A DNA stretch of 40,968 nt from positions 1-40,968 of the forward strand of contig JADFPP010000025.1 of the NCBI GenBank assembly GCA_022562275.1, read 5' to 3'. This DNA comes from Bacteroidota bacterium (GTDB taxonomy: Bacteria; Bacteroidota; Ignavibacteria; Ignavibacteriales; Ignavibacteriaceae). The notes beneath the pieces are model-generated. The model was not told the DNA's origin and searched no databases. It saw nothing but the letters and a program-made list of their open reading frames with translations. A program made the position numbers and the translations under genes. Below are positions 14,914-37,634 of the stretch, one piece after another (position 1 is the first letter of the stretch; the number at the start of each line of letters is the position of its first letter).

Positions 14914-15570
14914 ATGGATCTTTTTGAAATATTCTTAAAAGGCGGACTGATAATATGGTTTATACTCGCTACTTCTATACTTGGGATGGCTGTTGTTATC
15001 GATCGGTTTATTGTTATTAGAAGAGCTAAAATAAATGTTCCTGCCTTCATGATAAGACTGCGGGGTTTAATAAAGAAGAATGATATTAGCGGAGCGGTAT
15101 CGGTATGTATGCAAGAGAAATCGCCGATTGCAAATATTATCAGGAAAGGTTTGAAGAAATATAAATTTGGACATAACAGGGTAAAAGAATCCATCGAAAA
15201 TGCTGGTAAGCAAGAAGTAAACAAGCTGGAAAAAGGATTATCTATATTAGCAACTATAGCGGGAGTTGCACCATTATTAGGTTTCCTGGGTACTGTGACA
15301 GGTATGATAAGTGCTTTTATGACGATTGAAGATCTTGCAGGCTCTGCAAATCCGAGCGATCTTGCAGGCGGAATATGGGAAGCTTTGCTAACAACCGCAT
15401 TTGGTTTGATAGTTGGTATTCCGGCGTTTGCATTCTACAATTATTTTGTTAATGGAGTTAAGAAATTAGTTGGTGATATGGAAACTGTTGCAAATGATGT
15501 AGTGGATACGTTACAAGATGCTTCGGGTGAAGTTGAATTAATTGAAGAAGAATTAGAAATAGATATTTAG
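14914..15570 (+). CDS. exbB: ExbB/TolQ/MotA-family proton channel
   Basis: 218 aa with three TM segments (about 10-30, 108-133 and 155-180). Family hallmarks are GVAPLLGFLGTVTGMISAF in TM2 and LLTTAFGLIVGIPAFAFYNY in TM3, with a cytoplasmic stretch (about 38-105) between TM1 and TM2. With ExbD it forms the inner-membrane channel that uses the proton gradient to drive TonB or TolA. The ORF is followed eight bases later by exbD. TolQ cannot be excluded from sequence alone; the TonB-like third gene favours the Ton reading. Confidence 0.92.
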   Translation: MDLFEIFLKGGLIIWFILATSILGMAVVIDRFIVIRRAKINVPAFMIRLRGLIKKNDISGAVSVCMQEKSPIANIIRKGLKKYKFGHNRVKESIENAGKQEVNKLEKGLSILATIAGVAPLLGFLGTVTGMISAFMTIEDLAGSANPSDLAGGIWEALLTTAFGLIVGIPAFAFYNYFVNGVKKLVGDMETVANDVVDTLQDASGEVELIEEELEIDI

Positions 15571-15577
15571 GAAAGAA

Positions 15578-15979
15578 ATGAATTTTAATGTATCAAATAA
15601 ACCATTAAGTGTTTTTAGTTTTTCTTCGTTAACGGATATTGTAATGCTGCTGGTAATCTTTTTTCTGCTTACAAGTCAATTTGTTATTCATACCGGAGTG
15701 AAGGTAAAACTTCCGGGCTCCCGTATCAATGAAAAATCTGAAACAACCCGGTTGATTGTTACCGCTACATCTGAAGGTGCAATTTATATTGGTTCCGAAC
15801 AAATCGGAATAGACCGACTTTCTGAGAAACTTAGGGAATTAAATGAAGAAAGTAAGGAGAATAATTTGATTATTCGTGCAGATAAAACAGTTCAGATTGA
15901 CCTGGTAATAAAAATAATAGATGCAGGAAAATCTATTGGTATAGCTAAGTTTACTATTGAAACTGAAAGGGAAAAATAA
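15578..15979 (+). CDS. exbD: ExbD/TolR-family protein
   Basis: 133 aa. A short cytoplasmic N-terminus, one TM (about 18-34, LTDIVMLLVIFFLLTSQF) with the essential protonatable D20, and a periplasmic domain ending in LIIRADKTVQIDLVIKIIDAGKSIGIAKFTI, the usual ExbD pattern. AGGAAAG precedes the ATG. Pairs with the preceding channel protein; thirteen bases separate its stop from the TonB start used here. Confidence 0.93.
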   Translation: MNFNVSNKPLSVFSFSSLTDIVMLLVIFFLLTSQFVIHTGVKVKLPGSRINEKSETTRLIVTATSEGAIYIGSEQIGIDRLSEKLRELNEESKENNLIIRADKTVQIDLVIKIIDAGKSIGIAKFTIETEREK

Positions 15980-15992
15980 TAGGAATAAACTA

Positions 15993-16691
15993 ATGAAAGT
16001 GAATAAAATTTCAAGTGCTTCATTCCTTTTATCTGTAGTGCTTCATACTGTCATCATCTTTGTTCTCATGATTCTAAATTTATCCTTCGATTATAAAACC
16101 TCTGAATATGTAGAAGTATCATTTGGTGTTTCTACAGAAATGGGTTCATCGGGTTCGAAGGATAGTGAAATTGAAAAAATAGAGGAGGTTGCAAAACCTG
16201 AGGAGAAAAGTGTAACAGAAAGTAAAAATAAAGAAGTAAAGGTAGTTGAACTTCCTGTTACTCAAAATACATCGGAAGAAAATATAATTAAACCTGCCGA
16301 AAAGGATGAAGAAGTTTCCATTGAAAATAAAACGAAAAATGATGAAGAAGATATTTCTAATCTATCTTCAACGGGGCAGGGAAATGAAGCCGAAGGAGAA
16401 GGCAGTTTTGGATTTGATATTGACTGGGGAGGCAAAGGAATCAGAAAAATATATAGTTTTACACTACCTGGGTATCCAAAAGGTGTAAAGAAAGAAATTG
16501 ATATAAAACTTCAATTCACAATATTACCGGATGGTACTATCGGTACCATTATACCTAAAATTAAAGCAGATACAAGATTAGAAAATGCTGCTATTAACTC
16601 ATTAAGGCAATGGAGATTTGAGGCGCTTTCTGCATCTCAAAAACAAGTAGAACAAAAAGCTGTTATTGTGTTTCCTTATCGTCTTCAGTAG
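15993..16691 (+). CDS. TonB-like energy transducer
   Basis: About 232 aa. An N-terminal TM anchor (SSASFLLSVVLHTVIIFVLM) is followed by a long Glu/Lys-rich periplasmic spacer (about 45-145), which takes the place of the Pro-rich spacer of E. coli TonB. The C-terminal domain (about 155-232: SFTLPGYPKGVKKEIDIKLQ, FTILPDGTIGTIIP, LENAAINSLRQWRFEAL, QKAVIVFPYRLQ) matches the TonB/TolA C-terminal fold. The frame is open upstream to a TTG at 15957 inside exbD, but ATG 15993 has AGGA eight bases before it and is preferred. The last 29 bases overlap the convergent minus-strand gene. Confidence 0.88.
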   Translation: MKVNKISSASFLLSVVLHTVIIFVLMILNLSFDYKTSEYVEVSFGVSTEMGSSGSKDSEIEKIEEVAKPEEKSVTESKNKEVKVVELPVTQNTSEENIIKPAEKDEEVSIENKTKNDEEDISNLSSTGQGNEAEGEGSFGFDIDWGGKGIRKIYSFTLPGYPKGVKKEIDIKLQFTILPDGTIGTIIPKIKADTRLENAAINSLRQWRFEALSASQKQVEQKAVIVFPYRLQ

Positions 16692-19219: not shown

Positions 19220-21556
19220 GTGGAAAAACTTTCTTTAAGATTTATTATATTGTGTTTATCCATTTCATTCTTATTTCTATTTATGGTACCGACTTTGGCA
19301 CAAGAAGAAGAGGAAGACGAAGAAGAAGTTTCTTTGGGCGAAACTCCAGAACTGAGAGTAAATAAACTTTCCGGTGATTTTATATTTGACGGTTCGAGTG
19401 GACCTGCATGGTGGAGTGCCACAGACTCAATTGCTAATCTCATTACAATTGAACCGGAGGAAGGAGGTGTGCCTGAAGGAGCAACAATCGTTAAAGTTTT
19501 TGCAAATGAGAATGACATTATTGTTGCCGTATGGTGCAAGGATAATGATACGGAGGGAATTGTATCTTTTTCCAAAGCACGAGATTCAGATCTAACGGAA
19601 GAAGATCATATATTACTTGTATTTGATACATTCCGGGATGGTCGTTCCGGTTATGTGTTTGCCGTAAATCCAGATGGAGCTCGGTTCGATGGACTTGTAA
19701 TCGAGCAGGGTGAGGATGTAAACGGCGATTGGGATGCGATTTGGGAAGCTAAAACATCACGTGATAATACAGGTTGGTATGCTGAGATCCGGATTCCAAT
19801 CAAGAGCCTTGGTTACAAAGAGGGGCTTACCGATTGGGGATTTAATATACAACGACGAGTTCAGCGATTACAAGAAACCAGTAGATGGGCTGGTGCTAAA
19901 CGCGACTTTGAAATTTACAAAACCAGCCGTGCAGGACTTCTTACGGATTTACCGGACTTTGATTTTGGGGCCGGATTAAGTATCCGTCCTTCTTTCACAG
20001 GAGATGTGACTGAGCCGGTACCGGGAGGTGCTTTCACAGGAGAGTTCAGTCTTGATGTAACTCAAAGAGTGGGTCCGAATCTTTTATCGGCATTAACAAT
20101 TAATACTGATTTTGCTGAGACTGAAGTGGATGTTAGACAGATCAATTTAACACGATTCCCTCTATTCTTTCCGGAAAAAAGAACCTTCTTTTTGGAAGGA
20201 TCGGATATTTTCGAATTTGGTTTGGGGTTGGATGAGGATAATCTGATTCCTTTTTTTAGCAGACGTATTGGTCTTGTAGGTCTCGGCGAAGACGATCAAT
20301 CGGAAATACCAATTAATGTTGGTGGCAAAATTAACGGTCGTGTTGGCAATACAAACATAACCGCACTGATTGTAAACACCCGGAAGGTAGATAGTCTTCA
20401 AATTGGTGATGCGGATGAGGATATTAAGATTCATGTACCGGAAACAACAATGGGTTCTTTCAGAGCAAGTCAAAATATTTTTGAAGAGTCATCGGTGGGG
20501 CTTCTCGGCACTTTTGGTGATCAACTTGGGCGATCCGATTCCTGGTCGGCTGGTTTAGATTTTACATACCGAACCTCTAATTTTATGGATGAAAAGAATT
20601 TTCTTATTGGCATTTGGGGATTGCTGAATGATCGGGAAGATTTACACGGTGAAAAATCTGCATTCGGGGTTAGGATTGATTATCCCAATGATTTATTCGA
20701 CATCAATTTTACTACGATACGAATTGGTGATGGTTTCGATCCTTCTTTGGGTTTTGTACCACGAAATAGTATTCATCTTTGGACCTTTACCGGAGAATAT
20801 AATCCCCGCCCTTCAGAACCATTAGGCATATTTGCAGAATTGTTACCACCACAATTAGTTCGACAGATGTTTTATGAATTATCCTTTACGTTATACAACA
20901 AACTTAATAATTCCGAATGGGAAAGTTACGAGGTATTGATAAAACCACTCGACTGGCTGTTCGAGAGTGGTGATCAGATTCAGGCCGGTATTCAGCCATT
21001 GGGTGACAGACCACCGGAAATATTTGAGATATCAGGTGATTTAGACATTCCTGCTTCCTCATATGAGTGGACGCGATACTTTTTAGGATTAACCACAGCG
21101 CAAAAACGCAGTATAAGCGGTGGAATTTTATGGGAGTTTGGCAATTACTATAATGGTACTCTGAACACCATCGAGGCAAATCTGGCATTTAAACCTTCAG
21201 CATTATTTACCGTAGAATTAACTGCAGAACTAAATAGTGGTACAGTGAAAGCACTGCCTGATGACTATGATGAAGAAGCAGAATTTGTATTAACAGAAAA
21301 ATCATTCACTGAGGATTTATGGGGTATCAGGCTGCTTCTCAATTTCTCACCTGATTTGCAATTGAGCAGTTTTACTCAGTATGATACTGAAAGCCGGGAG
21401 TTCGGTTCCAACAACAGGCTGCGTTGGACGTTCGATCCTCTGGGAGAGATATTTATTGTATATAATTATAATGCAATTCGGAAGAGAGAGCTTAATCGGT
21501 GGGAATTTGTTTCTCAGGAATTACCAATAAAAATCCAGTATACATGGCGTTTTTAG
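19220..21556 (+). CDS. DUF5916-like outer-membrane protein with CBM9-like domain
   Basis: 778 aa. GTG start, with GGGAG six bases upstream; the signal peptide runs to VPTLAQ and is followed by an acidic patch (EEEEDEEEV). Residues about 45-230 resemble the CBM9-like domain of DUF5916 proteins (LSGDFIFDGSSGPAWWSA, DDHILLVFDTFRDG-type strand, YVFAVNPDGARFDGL, WYAEIRIPIKSLGY). FPLFFPEKRTFFLEGSDIFE (about 313-332) is a strong family marker. The rest is a beta-barrel ending in IQYTWRF with the C-terminal Phe typical of outer-membrane proteins. First gene of the higher-GC island; substrate unknown. Whether it shares a transcript with the RND genes is unclear because 751 bp separate them. Confidence 0.82.
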   Translation: MEKLSLRFIILCLSISFLFLFMVPTLAQEEEEDEEEVSLGETPELRVNKLSGDFIFDGSSGPAWWSATDSIANLITIEPEEGGVPEGATIVKVFANENDIIVAVWCKDNDTEGIVSFSKARDSDLTEEDHILLVFDTFRDGRSGYVFAVNPDGARFDGLVIEQGEDVNGDWDAIWEAKTSRDNTGWYAEIRIPIKSLGYKEGLTDWGFNIQRRVQRLQETSRWAGAKRDFEIYKTSRAGLLTDLPDFDFGAGLSIRPSFTGDVTEPVPGGAFTGEFSLDVTQRVGPNLLSALTINTDFAETEVDVRQINLTRFPLFFPEKRTFFLEGSDIFEFGLGLDEDNLIPFFSRRIGLVGLGEDDQSEIPINVGGKINGRVGNTNITALIVNTRKVDSLQIGDADEDIKIHVPETTMGSFRASQNIFEESSVGLLGTFGDQLGRSDSWSAGLDFTYRTSNFMDEKNFLIGIWGLLNDREDLHGEKSAFGVRIDYPNDLFDINFTTIRIGDGFDPSLGFVPRNSIHLWTFTGEYNPRPSEPLGIFAELLPPQLVRQMFYELSFTLYNKLNNSEWESYEVLIKPLDWLFESGDQIQAGIQPLGDRPPEIFEISGDLDIPASSYEWTRYFLGLTTAQKRSISGGILWEFGNYYNGTLNTIEANLAFKPSALFTVELTAELNSGTVKALPDDYDEEAEFVLTEKSFTEDLWGIRLLLNFSPDLQLSSFTQYDTESREFGSNNRLRWTFDPLGEIFIVYNYNAIRKRELNRWEFVSQELPIKIQYTWRF

Positions 21557-22307: not shown

Positions 22308-23225
22308 ATGATATCAAGCGGTGTACATTATTCACCCAAAGTAAGCGCTATTAATTTAACACTAGTAATACTATTTGCCGGATGCAGCTACATAATTATT
22401 TCTAACGATCTGGTAAGAGCACAGAGTACTGAGAATACTGTGAAAGAGTTCGAAGAATTCGACTATAAAAACTTCGATCATCCTACTAAAATCAATAATG
22501 AATGGATGCCATTGACACCCGGAATGCAATATATCTATTTAGGGACGACAGTAGATGATGATGGTGTGACTCGTCCGCATCGGGTTGTAATAACTATTAC
22601 CGATTTAACCAAGGAGATTGATGGTATACCTACGGTTGTTTCGTGGGATCTGGATTTCAGTGCGGATGAACTGGTTGAAGCTGAACTTGCATTCTTCGCA
22701 CAAGATAATGATGGAAACGTTTGGCGTATGGGTGAATACCCGGAAGAATACGAAGAAGGAGAGTTCGTTGCAGCTCCGTGCTGGATTGCGGGCATAAAAG
22801 ATTCTAAAGCGGGAATTTCTATGAAAGGTGATCCACGGATTGGAACACGAAGCTATTCTCAGGGCTGGTCTCCATCAACGGGCTTTACAGATCGTGGTCA
22901 GGTAGACCAAATGGTAGAGAAGGTTTGTGTGCCTGTGGACTGCTATGATGATGTTTTGGTAATATTAGAGAACAGTCTCGCAGAACCTGATGCTCATCAA
23001 CTAAAGTATTGGGCGCGCGGTGTAGGAAACATTCGTGTTGGATGGAAAGGCGAAGGAGAAAAAACACAGGAAATTCTTGAACTGACTGAAATTAAAAAAC
23101 TCGGTTCAGATTTACTTGCAGAAGTTCGCGCAAAGGCTTTGGAACTTGAAAAGCATGCTTATGAACGAAGTAAAGACGTATATGGTCTTACGAAACCATT
23201 GATTGCAAAGAAAGGAAACCAGTAA
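22308..23225 (+). CDS. Secreted protein, paralog of the 33516-34253 lipoprotein
   Basis: 305 aa, exported: a hydrophobic stretch ending LFAGC (C26) could be a lipobox, or cleavage may fall after VRAQ. Family not named, but it is clearly homologous to the lipoprotein at 33516-34253. Shared pattern: a start-up strand ending in DxTKEIxGIxT, then ELxE, GNVWRMGEYPEEYEEGEFV (GDVFYFGEEVDFYKDGKVV in the paralog), W-A/L-G, A-G-I/L-x-M-x-G-x-P, and a late YWARGVGNIRVG / YAPGIGIIQD. It has an extra helical C-terminus of about 45 residues. AAAGGAA precedes the ATG. It is 57 bases from the first RND gene, so probably its operon partner, perhaps a periplasmic substrate-binding or accessory protein (inference). 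Confidence 0.7.
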   Translation: MISSGVHYSPKVSAINLTLVILFAGCSYIIISNDLVRAQSTENTVKEFEEFDYKNFDHPTKINNEWMPLTPGMQYIYLGTTVDDDGVTRPHRVVITITDLTKEIDGIPTVVSWDLDFSADELVEAELAFFAQDNDGNVWRMGEYPEEYEEGEFVAAPCWIAGIKDSKAGISMKGDPRIGTRSYSQGWSPSTGFTDRGQVDQMVEKVCVPVDCYDDVLVILENSLAEPDAHQLKYWARGVGNIRVGWKGEGEKTQEILELTEIKKLGSDLLAEVRAKALELEKHAYERSKDVYGLTKPLIAKKGNQ

Positions 23226-23235
23226 TAATAAATTT

Positions 23236-23286
23236 ATGATAGAGAAAAATTTTAATTTAAATATAATTATGGAGGTCAGATTATGA
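23236..23286 (+). other. Possible 16-codon leader ORF before RND 1
   Basis: ATG at 23236 opens a frame MIEKNFNLNIIMEVRL whose TGA overlaps the ATG of the RND gene (ATGA at 23283-23286). It has no SD of its own and contains the RND gene's GGAGG, so it may be fortuitous. The same arrangement precedes the second RND gene. Confidence 0.3.
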
Positions 23287-26200
23287 TGAAAAGGATTATT
23301 ATAGCGAGTATGAAGGTTCGACTCCTTGTTGCTACTGTTGCTGTGTTACTGATAATATTTGGTATTACACAGCTTACTAAGATTCCAATGGATGTGTTAC
23401 CTGAATTCTCCCGTCCTTATGTGGAAATTCAAACGGAAGCACTGGGACTTTCCGCAGCAGAAATCGAAGCTCTGATTACCACTCCAATGGAAGCGGATAT
23501 GCTTAATGGTGTTTCGTGGGTTGAAGAAATCCGCTCTGAATCAATTCCGGGACTTTCATCTATCGTTCTTATTTTTGAGCAAGGCACAGACATTATGAAA
23601 GCACGGCAAATGGTACAGGAACGACTTGTATCAATATTTGCGTTGCCCGGAGTCTCGAAACCACCGGTAATGCTTAATCCCTTGTCGTCGACAAGCCGTG
23701 TCTTAAAAATCGGATTATCCTCAGACGAACTTTCCCTGATCGAAATATCCGTTCTTGCCCGCTGGACTATAGTTCCCCATTTGATGGGTGTAACCGGTGT
23801 TGCAAATGTTTCCATTTGGGGACAACGCAAACGTCAATTACAGGTTTTGGTTGATCCCGAAATATTAGAGAAAAAAGGGGTTACTTTAAATCAGATCATC
23901 AGTACAACTGGTAATGCTCTTTGGGTATCTCCATTAAGTTATTTAAAAGCATCAACACCCGGCACCGGTGGTTTTTTCGATACTCCCAACCAACGACTTG
24001 GTATCCGACATGTTTTGCCGATTTCAACTCCAGAGCAACTTTCTCAGGTAGTTGTCGATGGCACGTCGCTGCGTCTTGGTGATGTAAGCGAGGTAGTGGA
24101 AGAGCATCAGCCACTCATTGGAGATGCTATAGTCGATGAATCACCAAACCTTATGCTTATTGTTGAAAAATTTCCGTGGGCTAATACCATAGATGTAACA
24201 GCAAAAGTAGAAGCAGCGTTGGTAAATCTACAACCAGGTCTCTCCGGTTTGAAGATGAATTCTACTCTTTTTAGACCGGCAACATTCCTGGAGGTAGCTA
24301 CCGGTAACCTGACAACAACATTACTAATTGGCGGTATTCTTCTAATACTTGCACTTTTTGCCTTTTCCCTAAATTGGCGATCTGCTTTGATCAGCATCGT
24401 GACAATTTTACTTTCAATTATCGTGGCTGTTACAGTACTGTATCTTCAGGATATAACCCCAAATATGATGATCATTGCAGGATTAATAATTGCTGTCGGT
24501 TTGATAATTGATGATTCAATAATCGACATTGAAAACATTAAACGACGGATTCAAGAGCATCGAGAGGAAGGCAGTAACAAAAACCTTGCTACTATTATAT
24601 ACGAAGCTTCCATCGAAATGCGCAGCCCGATTATATATGCCTCACTGATCATAGTGCTTGCCATGGTGCCTGTTTTCTTCTTAGAGGGTTTGTCAGGTGC
24701 ATTTTATCAGCCAATTGCATTGGCTTACATTTTGGCATTAGCCGCTTCATTTGTAACGGCACTCATAGTTACTCCGGCTTTAAGTTTATTATTATTAAAA
24801 AATGCATCATCTCTAAGCGTAAACTCCCCAATTACAAAAACTTTAAAAAAGGTTTACGACATTTTATTTATGTGGGCAACGCGAATTCCACGCACAGCTT
24901 TTGCAACAGTGTGTGTAATCATAGTTGTTGGCATTATTGCGGCAATGTTCCTCAGACAAGATTCAGTGATACCTGAATTTAAGGAGACGGATTTACTGGT
25001 TCGATGGGATGGTCCTTCGGGCACGTCACATCCCGAAATGAACAGGATTGCCACTCTTGTAAGCAGCGAACTGCGCTCAATTCCCGGTGTGCGTAATGTA
25101 AGTGCACTTATTGGAAGGGCAGTTTTATCAGACAAAGTTACAAATATCAATTCCGGTCAGATTTGGGTCAGTATTGATCCTTCAGCTGATTATGAATCAA
25201 CTGTTTCTTCTGTTAAGGAAGTTGTAAGGGGTTATCCGGGTTTGTCAAATGAGGTTCTTACGTATCTGCAATCAAAAGTTAGAGAAGAGCTCTCCGGAAC
25301 GAATGAATCACTAATAGTACGAGTTTATGGTGAGGATTTTAACATGATAAGAAGCGAGGCAGAAGAAATAAAAAATCTTCTTACCCAGGTTGATGGCATC
25401 GTTGAATCCAAAGTTCTTTATTATACCGAAGAACCCACTATAGAAATTGAAGTCGATCTTGAAGCGGCTAAACTTTATGGGCTTAAACCCGGAGATGTCC
25501 GCCGTGAATCAACAACTTTGGTATCCGGAATTTTGGTAGGCAACTTATTTGAAGAACAGAAAGTTTTTGATGTAGTGGTTTGGGGTGTACCTGAAACACG
25601 ACACAGTGTTACAAGCTTACGCGAACTTTTAATCAGTACACCAACAATGGGTTCTATACCTCTAAAAAATGTAGCTGATATCCGTATCGTTCCTGGCGTT
25701 GCCAATATTAAACGTGAATCAGTAATCCGTTACGTAGACGTTAGCGCTACCATTAACGGCGGTAATTATACAAGTATATCAGCCGACATTAATCGTATTA
25801 TTAGTGAATTTGACTTTCCCCTGGAGTACAGGGCAGAATTATTAGGAGAATACGCTGAAAACTTAGCTGCACAGGAACGTATTCTAGGTTTTGCAATTGC
25901 GGCAGCAATCTTGATTTTCCTTCTGCTTCAGGTGTTCTTCAGAAGCTGGAAATTAGCAACTGCTATCTTCCTGACTTTACCTATGGCACTTGTAGGTGGT
26001 ATTATAATCGCATTATTAAGTTCAGGCGGTCTTCTTTCACTTGGTTACTTTCTTGGATTTGTAACTGTATTTAGTATTGCTGTTAGAAACACCGTTATGC
26101 TAATTCATCGCTACCGAACTTTTGAAAATGATGGTAAGCAATCTTTTGGACCCGAGCTTATTCAGCAGGTAACTCGTGAAAGGGTTGCACCAGTGCTAAC

Positions 26201-26441
26201 AACGGCAATTCTTACATTTCTTGCTGTTTTGCCCATGGCTCTGTATGGAAATATAGCAGGACTCGAGATCGTACACTCGGCAGCATTAGTAATTTTGGGA
26301 GGTTTAATAACATCTACATTTTATACTCTGCTTGGTGTTCCGGCTATGTACCTGATGTTTGGATCCAGCCCGGAGCCGGAATTGAATTTTTTACCGGATT
26401 CTTTACCAGATTCTTTAGCAGCTGAAGGCAGAGGGTTGTAG
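23283..26441 (+). CDS. RND-family efflux permease (CzcA/AcrB-like) 1
   Basis: 1052 aa, the usual RND length: TM1 near 10-30, a large periplasmic loop, TM2-6 (about 335-535), a second loop, and TM8-12 (about 865-1035). TM4 reads GLIIAVGLIIDDSIIDIEN (400-418): the D410-D411 pair and E417 match the general RND proton-relay pattern, while the DFGxxxDG motif of heavy-metal CzcA/CusA permeases is missing. So it is CzcA-like in overall sequence but not an evident metal pump. MDVLPEFSRPYVEIQTEA follows TM1. GGAGG precedes the ATG. It is a clear paralog of the permease at 27008, and together they could form a mixed trimer as in MdtBC. Substrate unknown. Confidence 0.92.
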   Translation: MMKRIIIASMKVRLLVATVAVLLIIFGITQLTKIPMDVLPEFSRPYVEIQTEALGLSAAEIEALITTPMEADMLNGVSWVEEIRSESIPGLSSIVLIFEQGTDIMKARQMVQERLVSIFALPGVSKPPVMLNPLSSTSRVLKIGLSSDELSLIEISVLARWTIVPHLMGVTGVANVSIWGQRKRQLQVLVDPEILEKKGVTLNQIISTTGNALWVSPLSYLKASTPGTGGFFDTPNQRLGIRHVLPISTPEQLSQVVVDGTSLRLGDVSEVVEEHQPLIGDAIVDESPNLMLIVEKFPWANTIDVTAKVEAALVNLQPGLSGLKMNSTLFRPATFLEVATGNLTTTLLIGGILLILALFAFSLNWRSALISIVTILLSIIVAVTVLYLQDITPNMMIIAGLIIAVGLIIDDSIIDIENIKRRIQEHREEGSNKNLATIIYEASIEMRSPIIYASLIIVLAMVPVFFLEGLSGAFYQPIALAYILALAASFVTALIVTPALSLLLLKNASSLSVNSPITKTLKKVYDILFMWATRIPRTAFATVCVIIVVGIIAAMFLRQDSVIPEFKETDLLVRWDGPSGTSHPEMNRIATLVSSELRSIPGVRNVSALIGRAVLSDKVTNINSGQIWVSIDPSADYESTVSSVKEVVRGYPGLSNEVLTYLQSKVREELSGTNESLIVRVYGEDFNMIRSEAEEIKNLLTQVDGIVESKVLYYTEEPTIEIEVDLEAAKLYGLKPGDVRRESTTLVSGILVGNLFEEQKVFDVVVWGVPETRHSVTSLRELLISTPTMGSIPLKNVADIRIVPGVANIKRESVIRYVDVSATINGGNYTSISADINRIISEFDFPLEYRAELLGEYAENLAAQERILGFAIAAAILIFLLLQVFFRSWKLATAIFLTLPMALVGGIIIALLSSGGLLSLGYFLGFVTVFSIAVRNTVMLIHRYRTFENDGKQSFGPELIQQVTRERVAPVLTTAILTFLAVLPMALYGNIAGLEIVHSAALVILGGLITSTFYTLLGVPAMYLMFGSSPEPELNFLPDSLPDSLAAEGRGL

Positions 26442-26508
26442 AAATTGACTAATTTATTTTGAAAAAAATTAACAAGCTATAAATTGATAAAATAAATAGG
26501 AGTTATAA

Positions 26509-26946
26509 ATGAAACGAAATAATCGATGGATAATTGGCTTTCTGGTTCTTGCCGTTCTGCAATTTTGGTCATGCCAAAAAGAGGACAGATCCCCACAATT
26601 CATACCGCCATCCGAAGTGGAGGAGATCGAAGGATCGGATTTTAGTATTGTGACTTTAACCGAGAGAGCTATAGAACGCACAGGCATTCAAACCGCAACA
26701 GTTGGTGAAATGAGTCAATCGCCTCGGAGAAAGGTCATACCTTACTCAGCATTGCTATACGGACCAGAGGGACAAACCTGGGTATATACAAGCCCGCAGC
26801 CTCGTGTTTTTGTTCGGTATGTTGTTGATGTTGATTACATAAAGGGTGACATAGTAGTGCTCAATGATGGGCCGCCTGTTGGTACTGTTATAGCATCAGT
26901 GGGTGTAGCTATATTGTACGGCGCCGAATTCGAAATGGGACATTAA
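26509..26946 (+). CDS. Mini RND adaptor lipoprotein (membrane-proximal domain only)
   Basis: 145 aa. Signal peptide with C22 (LQFWSC) as probable lipidation site. The mature part contains only the two terminal pieces of a periplasmic adaptor (membrane fusion protein): an N-terminal strand segment FSIVTLTERAIERTGIQTAT (45-64), then directly VIPYSALLYGPEGQTWVYTS (76-95) and DYIKGDIVVLNDGPPVGTVI to the end. In full-length adaptors these pieces are joined by beta-barrel, lipoyl and coiled-coil hairpin domains; none is present. It would sit on the permease in the periplasm but could not reach a TolC-type channel. AGGAG precedes the ATG. It lies between the two permease genes with about 65 bases on either side. 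Confidence 0.78.
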   Translation: MKRNNRWIIGFLVLAVLQFWSCQKEDRSPQFIPPSEVEEIEGSDFSIVTLTERAIERTGIQTATVGEMSQSPRRKVIPYSALLYGPEGQTWVYTSPQPRVFVRYVVDVDYIKGDIVVLNDGPPVGTVIASVGVAILYGAEFEMGH

Positions 26947-26966
26947 ATTGACAATGGAGGATTTTT

Positions 26967-27011
26967 ATGAATTGTTGGATTTTTAATTACAAAGGAGGAG
27001 GTCTGCTATGA
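26967..27011 (+). other. Possible 14-codon leader ORF before RND 2
   Basis: MNCWIFNYKGGGLL, with its own TGGAGG seven bases upstream of the ATG. Its TGA overlaps the RND start codon (ATGA at 27008-27011). The codons for KGGG contain the AAAGGAGGAGG ribosome binding site of the permease. Position suggests translational coupling or a leader; it may also be chance. Confidence 0.4.
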
Positions 27012-30000
27012 TGCGATGGATTGTTGGCAAGAGCCTCAAGTTTCGTTACCTGGTAATAGCTATTGCTGCGGTGATGATATTTTTCGGCATTGGTCAGCTT
27101 AAAAATGTACCTGTGGATGTGTTCCCCGAGTTTGCGCCGCCGTTAGTGGAGATTCAAACTCCCTGCCTCGGACTTTCCCCCGAGGAAGTTGAAGCACTGG
27201 TTACAATACCCCTTGAGCAGTCGCTGCAGGGAATACCGGGGTTAGATGTTATGCGCTCAAAATCTGTTCCCCAGTTATCTGCTATTAAAATGATCTTCAA
27301 AGCTGATACTGACTTAATGCTTGCACGGCAAATGGTACAGGAACGTGTTTCACTAATAACTCCCAGCTTACCAACCTGGGCCAGTCCACCGATAATGTTA
27401 CCACCGCTATCGGCAACCAGCCGATGTATGAAGATAGGGATTTCATCAGATTCACTTTCAGTAATCGACCTTTCAATGATCACCTACTGGACAATAAGGC
27501 AAAGAATATTGACTGTTCCCGGTGTTGCTAACGTTGCAATATGGGGTGAACGATTGGAAATGCTGCAGGTAATGGTGGTTCCGGAACTGCTTCAAAAGCA
27601 CCAGGTTACACTTGATGAGGTTAAGAAAGCAACCGCAGACGCCCTTGATGTGGGCATGTTACAGTATTCGGATGGACATCATATTGGTACTGGTGGCTGG
27701 ATCGATACACCAAATCAAAGACTTCCCATACGCCATGTTTTACCACTCATCTATAAGTCAGATAAGGTAAACCCTGAACATCTTGCCAATGTGGTTCTAA
27801 GGGTAAAGGATGGTAAGACACTCCTGTTAAAGGATGTAGCCGAAGTTGTTATAGATCATCAACCGATGATAGGAGATGCTATAATTAACGATGATATTGG
27901 TTTACTGCTTATAGTAGAAAAATTTCCATGGGGCAACACTTTGCAAGTAACTCAGGGAGTGGAAGAAGCACTGGATGCCTTACGGCCGGGATTAGCAGGT
28001 ATTGACATAGATTCTGAAATTTTTCGCCCGGCAACTTTTATAGAAATGTCAATCGACAATCTGACAGAAGCACTACTTATTGCAAGCTTTCTGGTTATAA
28101 TGATTCTTTTTCTGTTTCTTTATGAGTGGCGGACAGCGCTAATAAGTAGTGTGGCAATACCGTTGTCTTTGATGGCTGGCGGTCTTGTACTTTTTCTCCA
28201 AGGCACAACAATTAATACAATGGTATTAGCGGGTTTTGTGATCGCTCTTGGTGCAGTAGTTGATGATGCGATAGTTGATGTCGAAAACATCATGCGTCGA
28301 TTGCGCCAGCATCGCAAAGAAGGCGGGAAGATGTCATTTGCCAGGATAATTCTTGAAGCCTCTTATGAAGTCAGGCATGCTATCATTTTTTCTACTATGA
28401 TTGAAGTGATAGCTTTATTACCAGTGTTTGTGATGGAAGGATTATCCGGTGCATTTTTTCAGCCCCTCGCTCTTTCGTATGCTATGGCTGTTGTAGCATC
28501 TACAGTTGTTGCACTAACCGTAACTCCGGCTATGAGCTATATCTTACTACGTAATGCACCTCTCGACAGGCGTGAATCACCACTTTTAACTGTGCTACAC
28601 CGCGGGTACGATTGGATTATTACCAGGGTTGTTAGAACACCACGATCATCATATATAACCCTTGGCGTTATAGTGCTTGCAGGTATGATTGTTCTACCGA
28701 GGCTTGGCCAATCTCTTCTTCCTTCATTTAAGGAAAGAGACTTTTTAATGCACTGGCTTACAAAACCGGGCACTTCCTGGCCAGAAATGAACCGGATTAC
28801 AATCCAGGGCAGTAAGGAATTACGCGAAATTCCCGGAGTACAAAATTTTGGTGCTCATATCGGACAGGCATTGATAATGGACGAAGTTGTCGGTATGTAC
28901 TTCGGTGAAAATTGGATAAGTGTTGATCCTGCAGTTGATTATGATGAGACTTTAAATAAAATACAGACAGTGGTTGACGGGTATCCCGGACTTTATCGTG
29001 ATGTACTAACATATTTAAAGGAAAGAATCAGGGAGGTGCTTACCGGCTCACACGAAGCAATTACTATCCGCATTTACGGCAATGAGTTGGATATCATGCG
29101 GAAAAAGGCAGATGAAGTAAAGGAAGCTTTTGAGGATATTCCCGGACTTATTGATTTACATGTGGAACTCCAGGAGGAGATTCCGCAAATTGAAATAACC
29201 GTAGATTTGGAAAAAGCGGCATTTTATGGCATTAAACCGGGAGATGTTCGAAGGGCAGCTACAACATTGGTAGCTAGTGAAGAGATGGGAGACATTCATA
29301 TTGCTCACAGAACGTATGATGTGAATGTCTGGAGTATTCCGGAAGCACGGAGTAGCCTGACTGATATTCGTAATCTGCTGATCGATATTCCCGGTGGAAA
29401 GTATATACATTTAAGTGATGTTGCTGATATAAGTATCAAGCCGACTCCTAATGTAATAAAACGTGAGAATCTGGCTCGTAGAATTGATGTTGGCGCTAAC
29501 GTTAAAGGACGTGATCTTGGTTCTGTTGTAAAAGATGTTGAATACGCTTTGGCTGGGATTGATTTCCCCCACGGGTATTACCCGGTGCTGCTTGGAGAAT
29601 ATACAGAACGACAAGCTGTTGCAGACCGTATGTTGATCTACGCCCTTATCGCTATGCTCGGGATTTTCTTTCTTCTCCATACATCCTTCAAAAGTGCACG
29701 GCTGGCAACTCTGGCATTCTTACTTCTACCCACTGCTTTAGTAGGTGGGATTCTAGCAGCATACATGGGTGATGGAGTTATTTCACTAGGATCGCTTGTT
29801 GGATTTCTAACCATTTTAGGAATAGCTGCACGAAACGGAATTTTGATGATCAATCATTTTCAGCATCTGGAAAAGTATGAAGGTGAAACTTTTGGACCTG
29901 CGCTTGTTATGCGTGGAGCGAAGGAACGGCTTGCACCTATATTGATGACTGCAACCACAACCGGACTGGCTCTTTTGCCCCTGGTTCTTGCCGGAAGTAT

Positions 30001-30145
30001 TCCCGGTAATGAGATACAACTTCCTATGGCTGTCGTTATCATGGGTGGTCTTGTTACATCTACATTACTCAACCTGTTCATTATTCCTCCTCTTTACCTG
30101 CGTTTTGGTGCCAAGCAGGCACAAGATATTGTTACTAATGGATAA
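27008..30145 (+). CDS. RND-family efflux permease (CzcA/AcrB-like) 2
   Basis: 1045 aa with the same architecture as the permease at 23283. MMRWIVGKSLKFRYLVIAIA begins TM1, followed by PVDVFPEFAPPLVEIQTPCL; TM4 reads GFVIALGAVVDDAIVDVEN (409-427) with D419-D420 and E426. As in its paralog, the DFGxxxDG metal-type motif is absent. The C-terminal TM11 segment GIAARNGILMINHF is typical of the superfamily. A very strong SD (AAAGGAGGAGG) precedes the ATG. The paralogs share most landmarks (EGLSGAFxQP, PGVANVxIWG, HVLPLI/HVLPIS), so they arose by duplication but are well diverged. Both flank the single mini-adaptor, and no TolC-type gene is in the window. Confidence 0.92.
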   Translation: MMRWIVGKSLKFRYLVIAIAAVMIFFGIGQLKNVPVDVFPEFAPPLVEIQTPCLGLSPEEVEALVTIPLEQSLQGIPGLDVMRSKSVPQLSAIKMIFKADTDLMLARQMVQERVSLITPSLPTWASPPIMLPPLSATSRCMKIGISSDSLSVIDLSMITYWTIRQRILTVPGVANVAIWGERLEMLQVMVVPELLQKHQVTLDEVKKATADALDVGMLQYSDGHHIGTGGWIDTPNQRLPIRHVLPLIYKSDKVNPEHLANVVLRVKDGKTLLLKDVAEVVIDHQPMIGDAIINDDIGLLLIVEKFPWGNTLQVTQGVEEALDALRPGLAGIDIDSEIFRPATFIEMSIDNLTEALLIASFLVIMILFLFLYEWRTALISSVAIPLSLMAGGLVLFLQGTTINTMVLAGFVIALGAVVDDAIVDVENIMRRLRQHRKEGGKMSFARIILEASYEVRHAIIFSTMIEVIALLPVFVMEGLSGAFFQPLALSYAMAVVASTVVALTVTPAMSYILLRNAPLDRRESPLLTVLHRGYDWIITRVVRTPRSSYITLGVIVLAGMIVLPRLGQSLLPSFKERDFLMHWLTKPGTSWPEMNRITIQGSKELREIPGVQNFGAHIGQALIMDEVVGMYFGENWISVDPAVDYDETLNKIQTVVDGYPGLYRDVLTYLKERIREVLTGSHEAITIRIYGNELDIMRKKADEVKEAFEDIPGLIDLHVELQEEIPQIEITVDLEKAAFYGIKPGDVRRAATTLVASEEMGDIHIAHRTYDVNVWSIPEARSSLTDIRNLLIDIPGGKYIHLSDVADISIKPTPNVIKRENLARRIDVGANVKGRDLGSVVKDVEYALAGIDFPHGYYPVLLGEYTERQAVADRMLIYALIAMLGIFFLLHTSFKSARLATLAFLLLPTALVGGILAAYMGDGVISLGSLVGFLTILGIAARNGILMINHFQHLEKYEGETFGPALVMRGAKERLAPILMTATTTGLALLPLVLAGSIPGNEIQLPMAVVIMGGLVTSTLLNLFIIPPLYLRFGAKQAQDIVTNG

Positions 30146-30248
30146 AGCAGGTTTCAAATATTAGAAACTATGGTGGATGGCGAATCTATTTTCGTCATCC
30201 CCATATATTTTTCAATTTACCTTTAACTTAACATAGGGAAAATTCAAT

Positions 30249-31442
30249 ATGCAAAAATTTTACTTTTTAAATAAACGGTGCAGGCAGCAAATGATTTATC
30301 ACAGGCTTTTTAGTTTTTGTATTACCGGTTTAATCTTTCTTTTTATTTTATCGCCGTCTTTGTTTGATGCACATGCTCAGACCGGTTTACTATCTGATAT
30401 TAAATTCTACGGTGATGCTCGTTTTCGCTATGAAAATACGTCTAACGTAGAACCAAATTCAATTTTACTTGAAGGTCGAAATCGCGCAGTTGTTCGTTTC
30501 AGAGGAGGGTTTCAAAAGAAAATTAGCGAAATTTTTAATTTTGGTGTGCGTTTAGTAACCGGTTCGAGTGACGACCCGAATACTGCAGATGTTACGTTAG
30601 GTAGTTTTGTCAACGATCTCGAAATCAGTTTTGATCGTCTTTATCTTAAAATGTCCAACAATAACTTTGCACTGTCCGGCGGTAAATTTGCGAATCCTTT
30701 TCAAAGAACCGATCTTGTCTGGGATGGTGATGTTAATCCTCAGGGCGTAACCGGTAGCTATACATTTAAAGGTTCAAAAAAATTTATTCCAAAAATCACC
30801 GGTATATTTTTTACAATTGATGAACATTCTGGAACCGACATTCCCGATAGTGATATGCTGGGTGGGCAGATACAGTTTTCTACTTATCCTTCAGAAGATC
30901 TGAGTATTTCCCTGTCAGGCGGTTATTATGATTATGATATAACAAATTTGAGTAAAAGCACTGCTGATGCCGGTGATACCCGGAGCAATAATGTAATATT
31001 CGACAGCACAGGGGCAGCAGTTGCATATCTTTCAGACTTCGATTTAGTTGATGTAATTGCGGTTCTGGAATATCGCGGATTTGGAGAACGTTTTCCAATT
31101 AAAGTTGTTGGAGATTATGTAAAGAACCTTGGAGCAGAAGTAGACGAAGACCAGGGCTATGCAGTCGATCTGTTTGTCGGACGTGCATCAAAGAAAAATG
31201 ATATAAGATTTCGATACGGATATTCGCAAACAGAAACTGATGCAGTATTAGCTGCTTTCTCTAACGATAATACAACAATTGCGACAAATTATATACAGCA
31301 TACTATAACATTCGACTATGTTGCTCTTGATAATATGACACTTAATCTAACATGGTATATTTATAAAAATAATATAGTAACCGGTCAGGAAACTAATGAA
31401 TTTATTTCGCGCCTGCGTCTGAATGCTGTTGTAAAATTATAA
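30249..31442 (+). CDS. Outer-membrane porin, Porin_5-like
   Basis: 397 aa with a signal peptide ending near AHAQ (about residue 44), preceded by an unusually long basic N-terminus; a second ATG at codon 15 could be the true start. The barrel begins IKFYGDARFRYENTS and continues RAVVRFRGGFQKKI, FNFGVRLVTGSSDDPNTADV, LEISFDRLYLKMS and ALSGGKFANPFQRTDLVWDG, the landmarks of the bacterial putative-porin family. It ends in a beta-strand, LRLNAVVKL. It follows the second permease by 103 bases and closes the likely operon before a terminator, so it may provide the outer-membrane exit instead of TolC (inference). Confidence 0.8.
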   Translation: MQKFYFLNKRCRQQMIYHRLFSFCITGLIFLFILSPSLFDAHAQTGLLSDIKFYGDARFRYENTSNVEPNSILLEGRNRAVVRFRGGFQKKISEIFNFGVRLVTGSSDDPNTADVTLGSFVNDLEISFDRLYLKMSNNNFALSGGKFANPFQRTDLVWDGDVNPQGVTGSYTFKGSKKFIPKITGIFFTIDEHSGTDIPDSDMLGGQIQFSTYPSEDLSISLSGGYYDYDITNLSKSTADAGDTRSNNVIFDSTGAAVAYLSDFDLVDVIAVLEYRGFGERFPIKVVGDYVKNLGAEVDEDQGYAVDLFVGRASKKNDIRFRYGYSQTETDAVLAAFSNDNTTIATNYIQHTITFDYVALDNMTLNLTWYIYKNNIVTGQETNEFISRLRLNAVVKL

Positions 31443-32527: not shown

Positions 32528-33229
32528 ATGACAAAACGAATAAAGATTATTGGAGTATTGATTCTGCTTTTGAGCTCTCAATACCTTTTAACAGGATTTG
32601 CTCAGGAACCCGGTTCGTCTCAATTGTTTGCAGTTGCAAAAGTTCACTTTGAACAGAATGCAACGGATGGTGATGTCGAAGTCGTGTTCGAAATTAAAGG
32701 CGGTGATGAGGGTTTAGCGAATCTCAGAGTGGTATCACCGGATGGTAGGATAGTTATCGACTTCACAGCACCAGATGCCTCTACATTAGGAATAAGACAG
32801 TTTCGTTTTGAATCTCCCGAACCGAAAGATATAGAAGGCTTAAAGACAGCATACCCGGAAGGAGTCTATACATTTACCGGAGCTACATCAGACGGGAATA
32901 AATTCAAAAGTGTATGTACATTAAAACATAAGCTCCCCCCCACAGTTTCATTTCTTATACCTATGGCTGAGGAAGAAGACGTGAACATAGATAATTTAGT
33001 GATCACATGGACCCCTGTTGACAATGCAGCGGCATATAAATTAGAACTGGATCAAGAAGAGTTGGGTGTAAACATCCTGGTAAAACTTCCCGGAACAGTA
33101 GACAAGTTTGCTGTACCTGAAGACTTTCTCGTATCCAATACTGAATATACATTATCAATTGGTACCGTAACTGAAGATGGTAACATCTCTGTTGTAGAAA
33201 CAATGTTTACCACTGCCGGAGGTGAATGA
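32528..33229 (+). CDS. Secreted Ig/FnIII-like two-domain protein
   Basis: 233 aa with a signal peptide ending GFAQ. Domain 1 (about 35-130) is a beta-sandwich that begins AVAKVHFEQNATDGDVEVVF and contains VVSPDGRIVIDFTAPDAS. Domain 2 (about 137-230) looks like fibronectin type III: LVITWTPVDNAAAYKLELDQ, LVSNTEYTLSIGTVTEDGN. A single Cys lies near residue 125. AAAGGAAGG precedes the ATG. No enzymatic motif; probably a periplasmic or surface binding protein. Its neighbours are the RND cluster and the lipoprotein family, and it may belong to the same functional unit. Confidence 0.7.
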   Translation: MTKRIKIIGVLILLLSSQYLLTGFAQEPGSSQLFAVAKVHFEQNATDGDVEVVFEIKGGDEGLANLRVVSPDGRIVIDFTAPDASTLGIRQFRFESPEPKDIEGLKTAYPEGVYTFTGATSDGNKFKSVCTLKHKLPPTVSFLIPMAEEEDVNIDNLVITWTPVDNAAAYKLELDQEELGVNILVKLPGTVDKFAVPEDFLVSNTEYTLSIGTVTEDGNISVVETMFTTAGGE

Positions 33230-33484: not shown

Positions 33485-33515
33485 AATTATTTTTTTGTTA
33501 TTTAAGGAGGTTAAT

Positions 33516-34253
33516 CTGATTAAATCATTTCAGCCGGTATTAATAATTGTTATGATAGTTTCTATTTGGACTCTTGGTTGTGGAGACCCATGGAATTCTA
33601 ATGCTCATAATGATCCATCGTGGCAGAAAGAGTTTAATCTCTCCGAACGCACTCTGGTTCCAACAGGACGAAGCGATTATTTCATACTGGAACCCGGTTT
33701 TCAACTTGTTCTTGAAGGAACAGGCGGCTTCTTAGGCATGATCGATGAGAAACTGGTAATAACAGTACTGGATGAAACAAAAGAAATAAATGGTATCACT
33801 ACTCGAGTTATGGAGGAGAGGGAATGGAAAAACGATGAGTTGTATGAAGTTTCACGAAACTTCATTGTGATGGATAAGGAAACAGGTGATGTATTTTATT
33901 TTGGTGAAGAAGTTGATTTTTATAAAGATGGGAAAGTAGTTAATCATAAAGGCGCCTGGCTGGTTGGCGAGAACGATGCGACTGCCGGTCTTTTGATGCC
34001 CGGTAAACCAAAAGTGGGAATGAAGTACTATCAAGAGATCTCCCCCGGTAAGGCAATGGATCGAGCTGAGGTAATTGATATTGATCATACTCTTGAAACT
34101 CCTGCGGGCACGTTTTCAAAGTGTCTGAAAACAAAGGAGGGTTCGGCTCTTAAACTATACGAAAAGGAATACAAGAGTTACGCTCCCGGAATCGGGATAA
34201 TTCAAGATCAAAATTTGTATTTAACAAAATATGGATTCGTAGAAAATAACTGA
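33516..34253 (+). CDS. Lipoprotein, paralog of the 22308-23225 protein
   Basis: About 245 aa. The frame is open from TTG 33495, but that would place the strong AAGGAGG (33504-33510) inside the gene. The CTG at 33516 is five bases after it (an ATT at 33519 is also possible), so a rare non-ATG start is the best fit. It gives a short signal peptide with C22 in WTLGC as lipidation site. The mature protein shares its layout with the product of 22308: LDETKEINGITT, GDVFYFGEEVDFYKDGKVV, GAWLVGENDATAGLLMPGKP, KYYQEISPGKAMDRAEVIDI, ETPAGTFSKCLKTKE and YAPGIGIIQD. The fold appears beta-rich; function unknown. Confidence 0.7.
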   Translation: MIKSFQPVLIIVMIVSIWTLGCGDPWNSNAHNDPSWQKEFNLSERTLVPTGRSDYFILEPGFQLVLEGTGGFLGMIDEKLVITVLDETKEINGITTRVMEEREWKNDELYEVSRNFIVMDKETGDVFYFGEEVDFYKDGKVVNHKGAWLVGENDATAGLLMPGKPKVGMKYYQEISPGKAMDRAEVIDIDHTLETPAGTFSKCLKTKEGSALKLYEKEYKSYAPGIGIIQDQNLYLTKYGFVENN

Positions 34254-36170: not shown

Positions 36171-37634
36171 TTATTTGAGTAATACCATTTTTCTTGTCTC
36201 GATAAAATCCCCTGCTTCCAGATGATAAAAGTAAATTCCACTCGGTAATTCTTTTGCTCTGAATTCTATCTGGTAACTTCCTGCGGGAGATACTTCACTT
36301 AATAAAGTTCTTACCTCTTTACCCGAAATATCAAAAACTTTTATTGTTATAAAACTTAGTTCCGGAATTTGGTATTTGATGAATGTAATTGGGTTGAATG
36401 GATTGGGGTAATTCTGCATTAAAGCATAACGGGTGATTATATCTTTCTTCGATTCTACTCTTATTGTTGGGGCAATGGGAGAGAACTTAAAGTCTGTGAT
36501 AACAATTTCAACTTCATCTTCATGTGCAGGGGGCTGACTATTAAAGAGCCAGAGATTTATTCTGATTGTTTCCTTTGCTCGATTTGGAATATTCGGTCCA
36601 ACATAAGTCCAGGAATTAATAGTGGATCTATACGGTTCTATCTCTCGATGATTATTAAAGCTAAGAAAATTAATCGATTCACTTGCCCAATTTATTCTAT
36701 GCGTAGATGAACTTCCGGTGTTGGATACCCTCCATCTCTTAATATTACCGGGAATGTTTGACGGCTGTACAACATACTGTGCATTCATGCTATCCTTTAC
36801 ATTTCCCCATCGTGAAAATTCAATATCAATTTCATTATGATTTTTATTATTAGCATCGTCATCCCAAGTAAATAAACCCAGAACAGCATTTTCGTTTATC
36901 TCATTAAGATTAGTAGAAATTTCAAAAGAGTATCTGCCATAGCCTAAAGATTCCTTTAGTATTACTTCAGAACAATACCAATTCTCATTTCTTTTAATGA
37001 TTTTAAGATGCAGGTTATCCTCCGCATCTACCCATACATTTTCATTGTGATCAGAAAAAAAATTGTTTCCGGGATTAGTTAATTTTATATCGTTTTTAAC
37101 CCACCATTGGTAACCGGAAAATTTTATAAAGCGTGGATTACGTTTTGTATCTACAATAGCAGCAGCAATTTTGTTAAGTGAGTCGGGTAATAAATCTAAA
37201 CCATCTGCCAATGGGGGCTTAAATCCATCGTGTACCAGAAAAGCCCGAATCCTTGTTGTAAATCTATCATTACCCCCGGTAGTAATATCTACCGACCATG
37301 TTGAGTCAGGTTGTATGGTAGTTAATGCCTGAGTAAATCTGGGTTTTATCCACCATCCTGTATCTTCTACAAAAATATAAACTGCAACTTTAAAATTCTT
37401 GGTATTAATATTCCTAACCCTGCCTGTTAAATTTTTGCTGCTGCCGTATGGCGGTACAAAGGTAAATTCTATAACCGGATTATTGCTAGAGGATGGTGAT
37501 ACTTCTCGTAAGTTCTGACCGGCATAATTGTGAAAGTCTCCCGGATATAAGAGAAAAAACAACGATAATATAAACCAATTAACCCGTAGCGGAAAGCCGT
37601 GATTTATAAGGAATCTGCAAAAATTATTTCTCAA
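36171..37634 (-). CDS. T9SS-sorted glycoside hydrolase, family 16
   Basis: 487 aa. TTG start; the export signal is the hydrophobic stretch about 19-31. Residues about 53-135 form an N-terminal beta-sandwich (VIEFTFVPPYGSSKNLTGRV). The GH16 domain spans about 175-385 and has the catalytic motif E268-I-D-I-E272 in HNEIDIEFSRWG, with E268 as nucleophile and E272 as acid/base, so it is likely active on a beta-glucan or related polysaccharide. The last 97 residues are a T9SS sorting domain (YALMQNYPNPFNPITFIKYQ ... GIYFYHLEAGDFIETRKMVL). It would be secreted and anchored outside. No SD is visible; the LacI regulator nearby could be related but has no operator here. Confidence 0.9.
   Translation of the reverse strand: MRNNFCRFLINHGFPLRVNWFILSLFFLLYPGDFHNYAGQNLREVSPSSSNNPVIEFTFVPPYGSSKNLTGRVRNINTKNFKVAVYIFVEDTGWWIKPRFTQALTTIQPDSTWSVDITTGGNDRFTTRIRAFLVHDGFKPPLADGLDLLPDSLNKIAAAIVDTKRNPRFIKFSGYQWWVKNDIKLTNPGNNFFSDHNENVWVDAEDNLHLKIIKRNENWYCSEVILKESLGYGRYSFEISTNLNEINENAVLGLFTWDDDANNKNHNEIDIEFSRWGNVKDSMNAQYVVQPSNIPGNIKRWRVSNTGSSSTHRINWASESINFLSFNNHREIEPYRSTINSWTYVGPNIPNRAKETIRINLWLFNSQPPAHEDEVEIVITDFKFSPIAPTIRVESKKDIITRYALMQNYPNPFNPITFIKYQIPELSFITIKVFDISGKEVRTLLSEVSPAGSYQIEFRAKELPSGIYFYHLEAGDFIETRKMVLLK

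Follow-up and report, generated by a model that had tools for sequence, protein, structure and literature searches.

In resistance-nodulation-division (RND) pumps, adaptor proteins are thought to have two roles, stimulation of the permease and engagement of the outer-membrane channel, and a 2015 review considers that the two might be split (PMC4338810). That review also ties stimulation of the transporter to the C-terminal, membrane-proximal (MP) domain of the adaptor and gives MdtB2C as a precedent for a split of labor between permeases; engagement of TolC is tied to the adaptor hairpin in another paper (PMC3807786). Tandem permease genes are reported only for one HAE-1 clade in a 2024 survey of 6205 RND proteins, in which a pair with an adaptor gene between its members may have gone uncounted (PMC10872679). 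Here, we describe a locus in which two RND permease genes (RND1 and RND2) flank the gene for a 145-amino-acid protein, referred to below as the stub, that aligns as an RND adaptor reduced to its MP domain. The locus lies in a stretch of 40,968 nucleotides (contig JADFPP010000025.1, our C146; hereafter "the window") from a 3.4-Mb, 148-contig genome of the Ignavibacteriaceae (Bacteroidota). Our leading reading, tentative and held with somewhat less than even confidence, is that the three proteins form a two-permease RND pump, a mixed trimer that an MP-only adaptor serves or activates without forming a conduit.

The adaptor stub

Open reading frames (ORFs) of 305, 1052, 145, 1045, and 397 amino acids follow one another on the plus strand, separated in order by 57, 67, 61, and 103 bases, as the initial annotation had them: secreted protein, RND1, mini-adaptor, RND2, porin. 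Purine runs resembling Shine-Dalgarno sequences can be seen by eye upstream of RND1, the 145-amino-acid gene, and RND2. A search for the same gene order in other genomes found it, headed by a DUF5916 gene, in a separate assembly from the same genus (JADFLR010000005.1, locus L008, which is the same locus as in genome G140); because the order recurs there, the arrangement is not due to chance or artifact.

The stub has no Pfam or NCBIfam match at an E value of 0.1 and was not among the matches of a TIGR01730 scan (E 0.01); two further stubs, described below, have no Pfam match at E 0.01. Against a profile of the adaptors of nine relatives, it aligns in two collinear pieces, residues 12 to 76 on profile positions 9 to 73 (28.6 bits) and residues 76 to 145 on positions 274 to 343 (53.6 bits). 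Its total is 82.5 bits, and AcrA, CusB, and MdtA score 50.0, 40.7, and 35.9 bits on that profile. Aligned with the adaptors of about 400 residues from G105, G072, G253, and Hymenobacter, the first ~66 residues of the stub correspond to the start of those proteins and the last ~70 to their end, and ~250 residues of the middle are absent. Only MP pieces take part in the alignment; the barrel, lipoyl, and hairpin domains are not present, the domain names being those we assigned by comparison with AcrA and by what we take to be the usual domain order. By alignment, the small protein is thus the two ends of a ~400-residue RND adaptor joined directly, an MP domain alone, in agreement with the initial annotation. 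It keeps three glycines that are invariant across seven aligned sequences, and its G132 was aligned to Gly363 of AcrA by two methods, MAFFT and a hidden Markov model. Gly363 is described as ultra-conserved and within RND-binding box 9 of the MP domain (PMC6975555). A signal peptide and a lipobox-like motif (LQFWSC) were recognized by eye, and the protein may be anchored by lipid.

Contig C146 has no match to OEP at E 0.001 or to RND_mfp at E 0.01, and contig C56 of G140 has none to OEP. With neither a TolC-type gene nor a full-length adaptor on the contig, a standard tripartite pump cannot be built from the genes there, which upholds two further statements of the initial annotation.

Distribution and conservation of the stub

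We searched overlapping samples of the order, the phylum, and the class, and plasmids as well. In the order sample, 5 of 164 genomes match the stub, and three of these carry stubs, all in one genus: the source genome, G140 (72% identity to the window), and G298 (46%; 44 to 46% across comparisons). Three other genomes of that genus (G297, G299, and G300) have no stub match. Six of 296 genomes match in the phylum sample (two stubs), as do 11 of 391 in a profile search of the class sample (two stubs; G298 is not among the 11). A scan of contig collections, sensitive to close relatives only, returned one record, JADFLR010000005.1. Among plasmids, the stub matched five records. All five are from Hymenobacter and carry an annotation as adaptor subunit, and in each the match spans less than 80% of the query. 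Outside the genus, stub searches match only open frames of 355 to 606 amino acids, and these match its C-terminal part, with the exceptions of G650 (N-terminal part) and G105 (both parts).

Simple pairwise counts give a ratio of nonsynonymous to synonymous substitution rates (dN/dS) of 0.45 between the window and L008 stubs (31.8 of 106.4 synonymous versus 50.2 of 328.6 nonsynonymous sites; Fisher p = 0.0016), 0.27 between the window and G298 (71.1 of 102.3 versus 121.9 of 320.7; p = 2.8e-8), and 0.27 between L008 and G298 (p = 1.1e-8). By these counts, the stub is under purifying selection; having been kept in this way by three genomes of one genus, it does not represent a recent defect. A degraded, nonfunctional remnant of a full adaptor would fit the longer adaptors of relatives outside the genus, but the boundaries of the stub are identical in the three genomes and its reading frames are intact; together with the significant selection, this leaves a pseudogene very improbable.

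Two duplicated permeases

The matches of RND1 and RND2 to ACR_tran (Pfam E values of 6.6e-172 and 4.9e-212) span the entire model, and the two proteins are 48% identical to each other. In a tree of 13 sequences they form one clade (support 98/97), RND1 on the longer stem (0.96 versus 0.5), and on this tree they are sister duplicates. The RND1 and RND2 proteins of both species have in common an 11-residue insertion at residue 216. It is absent from 15 of 15 other permeases, namely, nine of nine relatives, AcrB, CusA, MdtB, MdtC, and two permeases of the same genome. We read the alignment as placing the insertion in the equivalent of an AcrB loop; loops protruding from this subdomain into the neighboring protomer are reported as essential for trimer assembly of AcrB (PMC8277102).

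The proton relay is intact in both permeases, with equivalents of AcrB D407, D408, R971, and T978; the K940 equivalent is arginine in both, as it is in nine of nine aligned relatives. The two differ at the putative cargo site. At six positions, RND2 and all six single-RND relatives compared have H582, E676, H617, E626, E634, and E672, two of these positions aligning to CusA M573 and M672. In the same order, RND1 of the window has R, E, L, K, Q, and S (one kept), and that of L008 has R, E, H, R, Q, and S (two kept). The CusA M623 position holds phenylalanine in RND2 and relatives and serine in RND1, so that the CusA-type methionine triad is not conserved, reading R/S/E in RND1 and H/F/E in RND2 and the six single-RND relatives. 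With its acidic residues and histidines, the site points to a cargo that is cationic or metal-like. For both permeases the top NCBIfam model is TIGR00914 (HME), far above the MdtB and MdtC models, at 436.9 (RND1) and 561.8 (RND2) bits, scores below its curated cut-off of 701.45; with the HME model scoring best, placement in HAE-1 was not borne out.

The pattern resembles the split proposed for MdtB (energy) and MdtC (cargo); the same would be seen if RND1 had changed its cargo. The mixed-trimer pump of the initial annotation thus gains indirect support from the sister duplication, the shared insertion in the docking-arm region, and cargo-site losses in RND1 only, and the trimer itself is one that we infer. 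Separate homotrimers with different cargoes, RND1 being a specialized duplicate and the stub serving both or RND2 only, would fit the longer stem of RND1 and its retention of only 279 of 433 family-invariant positions (338 of 433 in RND2), and the changed site of RND1 fits another cargo as well as lost cargo binding. We nevertheless consider such homotrimers rather unlikely: co-assembly agrees with the gene order and with the arm insertion common to both, and RND1 is not decaying (dN/dS of 0.18, versus 0.13 for RND2). An apparent loss of invariant residues in RND2 at 201 to 250 (p = 0.0004) was discarded as an artifact, 17 insertion columns having been counted as invariant (450 rather than 433).

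Synonymous divergence (dS) between the window and L008 is low over window positions 23283 to 27907, and the flanks are highly diverged. Per 150 codons, dS is 0.25 to 0.41 in RND1, 0.38 in the stub, and 0.43 to 0.50 in the first 300 codons of RND2, then 0.73 to 1.50; it is 1.47 to 2.54 in the upstream DUF5916 gene (one saturated bin) and 1.26 to 1.46 in the downstream secreted-protein gene. A recent exchange of the RND1-stub-RND2 core between lineages would account for this pattern, and the 89% identity of RND1 between the species would then partly reflect that exchange.

Single-permease relatives

The closest single-RND permeases overall are 50 to 55% identical to RND2 and 42 to 47% identical to RND1. 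Among the best 15 of 145 plasmid records, those closest to RND2 are from Methylomonas (54%), Hymenobacter (51 to 52%), and sphingomonads (48 to 50%). In the phylum sample, the best matches of RND1 outside the genus are single permeases (44 to 47% identity), and in the class sample the best match of RND2 outside the genus is in G105 (52%), the next reaching 39%. Among relatives, including the three distant-match neighborhoods covered (G203, G255, and G228, each with a single permease beside an adaptor-sized ORF), we saw neither a second two-permease pair nor two permeases together with a full-length adaptor.

All nine close single-permease loci (five annotated plasmid loci, the unannotated plasmid locus L076, and genomes G072, G105, and G253) have a TolC-type gene and a longer adaptor beside the permease; the TolC-type gene was identified by annotation in five and by Pfam OEP in four (L076, G072, G105, and G253). 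Because these closest relatives have longer adaptors, the stub would have arisen by internal deletion. In the initial annotation, relatives with a full-length adaptor at this position were to reduce the stub to a deletion; the longer adaptors and TolC-type genes of all nine single-RND loci agree with that much, and the selection on the stub in three genomes speaks against its being a mere loss.

The four Bacteroidota adaptors are 397 to 419 amino acids long and match HlyD_3 and HlyD_D23 above the cut-off. The five Pseudomonadota adaptors are shorter (314 to 346 amino acids); four have no Pfam family, and that of Novosphingobium matches HlyD_D23 below the cut-off. In the alignment, all five lack both halves of the lipoyl domain and keep the hairpin, barrel, and MP segments. 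Since the adaptor family loses domains repeatedly, the MP-only stub can be seen as the extreme of a trend. Lipoyl-less adaptors accompanied by TolC genes (L063, L064, L076, L077, and L078, on Methylomonas and sphingomonad plasmids) are possibly an undescribed adaptor class. The annotated start of the Methylomonas adaptor is probably too late, as an in-frame stretch upstream resembles a signal peptide.

Proposed mechanism and alternatives

In the pump that we propose, RND1 and RND2, duplicates of one HME-like permease, would most likely share one mixed trimer. The stub would be lipid anchored in the periplasm and packed on the porter domains at the usual MP-domain site, where it would provide an activating contact, the Gly363-type residue included, without a conduit and without engaging TolC. 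RND1 would serve chiefly in proton coupling and RND2 in cargo binding, with cargo leaving into the periplasm. The wider proposal, of a non-spanning, independently evolved heteromeric HME-like pump whose MP collar activates without a conduit and whose cargo passes to the periplasm, perhaps onto co-encoded secreted proteins, we regard as conceivable and more doubtful.

Several observations weigh against the proposed pump. The AlphaFold model of the stub, built from two sequences, is poor (predicted local distance difference test [pLDDT] score, 45.4) and lends no structural support. The losses in RND1 (154 of 433 invariant positions) are spread over the protein, beyond the cargo site: in bins 551 to 700, which are free of insertions, RND1 lost 35 of 81 invariant positions and RND2 15 of 81 (p = 0.001), yet RND1 also lost 119 of 352 elsewhere, so that its loss is not clearly concentrated there (concentration test p = 0.20, on a table that counts insertion columns). 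Furthermore, according to the 2015 review, TolC binding first stimulates the adaptor, which then activates the transporter (PMC4338810); unable to meet TolC, the stub would need to be active unaided.

Full-length adaptors and TolC genes also exist elsewhere in the source genome, which makes complementation in trans possible. OEP genes lie on contigs C65, C41, and C110, and adaptors on these and on C135, beside an RND gene (C110, C41, and C135) or ABC_tran and MacB-type permease genes (C65). The initial annotation had named a normal adaptor and TolC co-expressed with the permeases as grounds for giving up its view; both kinds of gene are indeed present (the adaptor only on C135), but every adaptor stands beside its own transporter. 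The stub might accordingly be part of a mixed adaptor ring with a full-length adaptor from another locus, in the manner of TriA/TriB, in a tripartite pump with a shared TolC. Channel sharing is plausible for C135, whose RND and adaptor genes have no OEP on the contig, and TriABC requires two different adaptors (PMC4338810). We consider a mixed ring unlikely: besides the commitment of all four full adaptors to neighboring transporters, a stub search of the source genome at E 1e-3 matches no other adaptor, and the stub has neither of the two domains, barrel and lipoyl, that mediate the contacts between CusB adaptors (PMC3807786).

G298 raises a different difficulty for the proposed pump. Its stub (L046, positions 9824 to 10318) has an intact frame, a lipobox-like motif, and a C-terminal GH, and there is no RND1- or RND2-like permease in the 20 kb around it; a tblastn search for RND remnants near it gave nothing above chance at E 10. 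In this genome, a single contig rated 80% complete, an RND2 search at E 1e-20 found one distant permease (121384 to 124461; 27 to 31% identity), which is adjoined by its own HlyD-type adaptor. Unless the assembly lacks the permeases, the stub must serve another purpose there, and a role confined to the pump leaves the G298 stub without explanation. A role of its own, apart from RND pumping, would make the place of the stub between the permeases secondary or a relic. We judge this quite improbable, as the stub lies between the permeases in each of the two genomes with the pair, the positions conserved in it belong to the MP domain of pump adaptors, and the incompleteness of G298 may have cost it the permeases.

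Neighboring genes

Features of the locus are collected in Table 1. The slot of the window porin (PF16930) holds a Porin_O_P protein (PF07396) in L008, a different Pfam family, and a terminator-like hairpin precedes the porin gene in the window. Because of these two observations the porin was rejected as a part or partner of the machine, contrary to the delivery to the outer membrane with the porin that the initial annotation offered as one possibility, and it probably stands outside. The region holds no surplus of terminator-like hairpins (11, against 10.0 expected), and a promoter scan gave 33 sites, compared with 41.3 in shuffles.

The secreted proteins of 305 and 252 amino acids are paralogues. 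The family of the latter was found in 5 of 164 order-sample genomes (E 1e-5), in all five with one copy within ~3 kb of an RND gene, and in 4 of 282 phylum-sample genomes (E 1e-10), which add G219, with no RND match in the 20 kb around. It is therefore near (~3 kb) an RND gene in five of the six genomes that carry it. Members of this unnamed family thus occur repeatedly near RND pumps (window 22308 to 23225 and 33495 to 34253; L091, L092, and L093), with a PepSY_like protein (Pfam) close by in L092 and L093. The AlphaFold model of the 252-residue protein is too poor to use (pLDDT, 43.2; four sequences).

Elsewhere in the window, the upstream DUF5916 gene (19220 to 21556) keeps its position in L045 and L008 (70% identity). 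ExbB, ExbD, and TonB_C proteins (Pfam) are encoded consecutively at 14914 to 16691, and a secreted protein at 36171 to 37634 carries a Por_Secre_tail sorting domain and narrowly misses the cut-off for Glyco_hydro_16.

Table 1 Features of the two-permease locus, in window coordinates
Feature	Position	Strand	Remarks
Secreted protein, 305 aa	22308..23225	+	Paralogue of the 33495-34253 protein
RND1 permease, 1052 aa	23283..26441	+	Relay D410, D411, R935, R967, T974 kept; acidic/His cargo cluster mostly gone
Insertion of 11 residues in RND1, residues ~215-227	23925..23963	+	DN docking-arm region by alignment
Putative MP-only adaptor (stub), lipoprotein-like, 145 aa	26509..26946	+	N-terminal MP piece to ~residue 66, C-terminal MP piece ~76-145
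RND2 permease, 1045 aa	27008..30145	+	Cargo cluster H582, H617, E626, E634, E672, E676 and relay kept
Same 11-residue insertion in RND2, residues ~215-227	27650..27688	+	DN docking-arm region by alignment
Terminator-like hairpin, 10 pairs	30175..30200	+	Between RND2 and porin
Porin, 397 aa, PF16930 Porin_5	30249..31442	+	Pfam
Secreted protein	32528..33229	+	fn3 only below cut-off; 62% identical in L045; conserved neighbor
Secreted protein of RND-associated family, 252 aa	33495..34253	+	Second copy in cluster

Comparison with known systems

The single-RND HME-like systems of Hymenobacter, Methylomonas, and sphingomonad plasmids and of G072, G105, and G253 provide the closest permeases and the adaptor family from which the stub would derive. 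They differ from the window locus in that a single permease gene is accompanied by genes for a longer adaptor and a TolC-type channel, and their Pseudomonadota members lack the lipoyl domain only; these lipoyl-less adaptors point to step-wise domain loss within one adaptor family. The nearest solved permeases are those of CusCBA and ZneCBA (RND2 matches ZneA at E 8e-108 and CusA at E 3.4e-97; RND1 matches ZneA at E 9.6e-82). Those systems are tripartite, with full adaptors, and the methionine triad of CusA is not shared by RND1 and RND2.

An MP-only adaptor was not found in the open-license papers that we searched, where BesA and EmrA surfaced as cases of domain loss. EmrA is reported to have lost the MP domain (PMC4338810). 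BesA of Borrelia is, like the stub, an adaptor with lost domains; it lost only the hairpin, keeps the lipoyl, barrel, and MP domains, and works with the channel BesC (PMC3807786), whereas the stub is without lipoyl and barrel domains as well. If the proposed reading is true, a natural MP-only adaptor would make the roles of activator and tunnel-building conduit directly separable and testable.

In its two duplicated permeases (about 50% identical), its one adaptor, and the proposed split between proton coupling and cargo, the locus is like MdtABC and MuxABC. Those systems belong to HAE-1 and have a full-length adaptor, a TolC-type channel, and directly adjacent permease genes, whereas the window locus is HME-like, stems from a separate duplication, and has a putative MP-only adaptor gene between the permeases. 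The permease pair would thus be a separate origin of the MdtBC-type arrangement.

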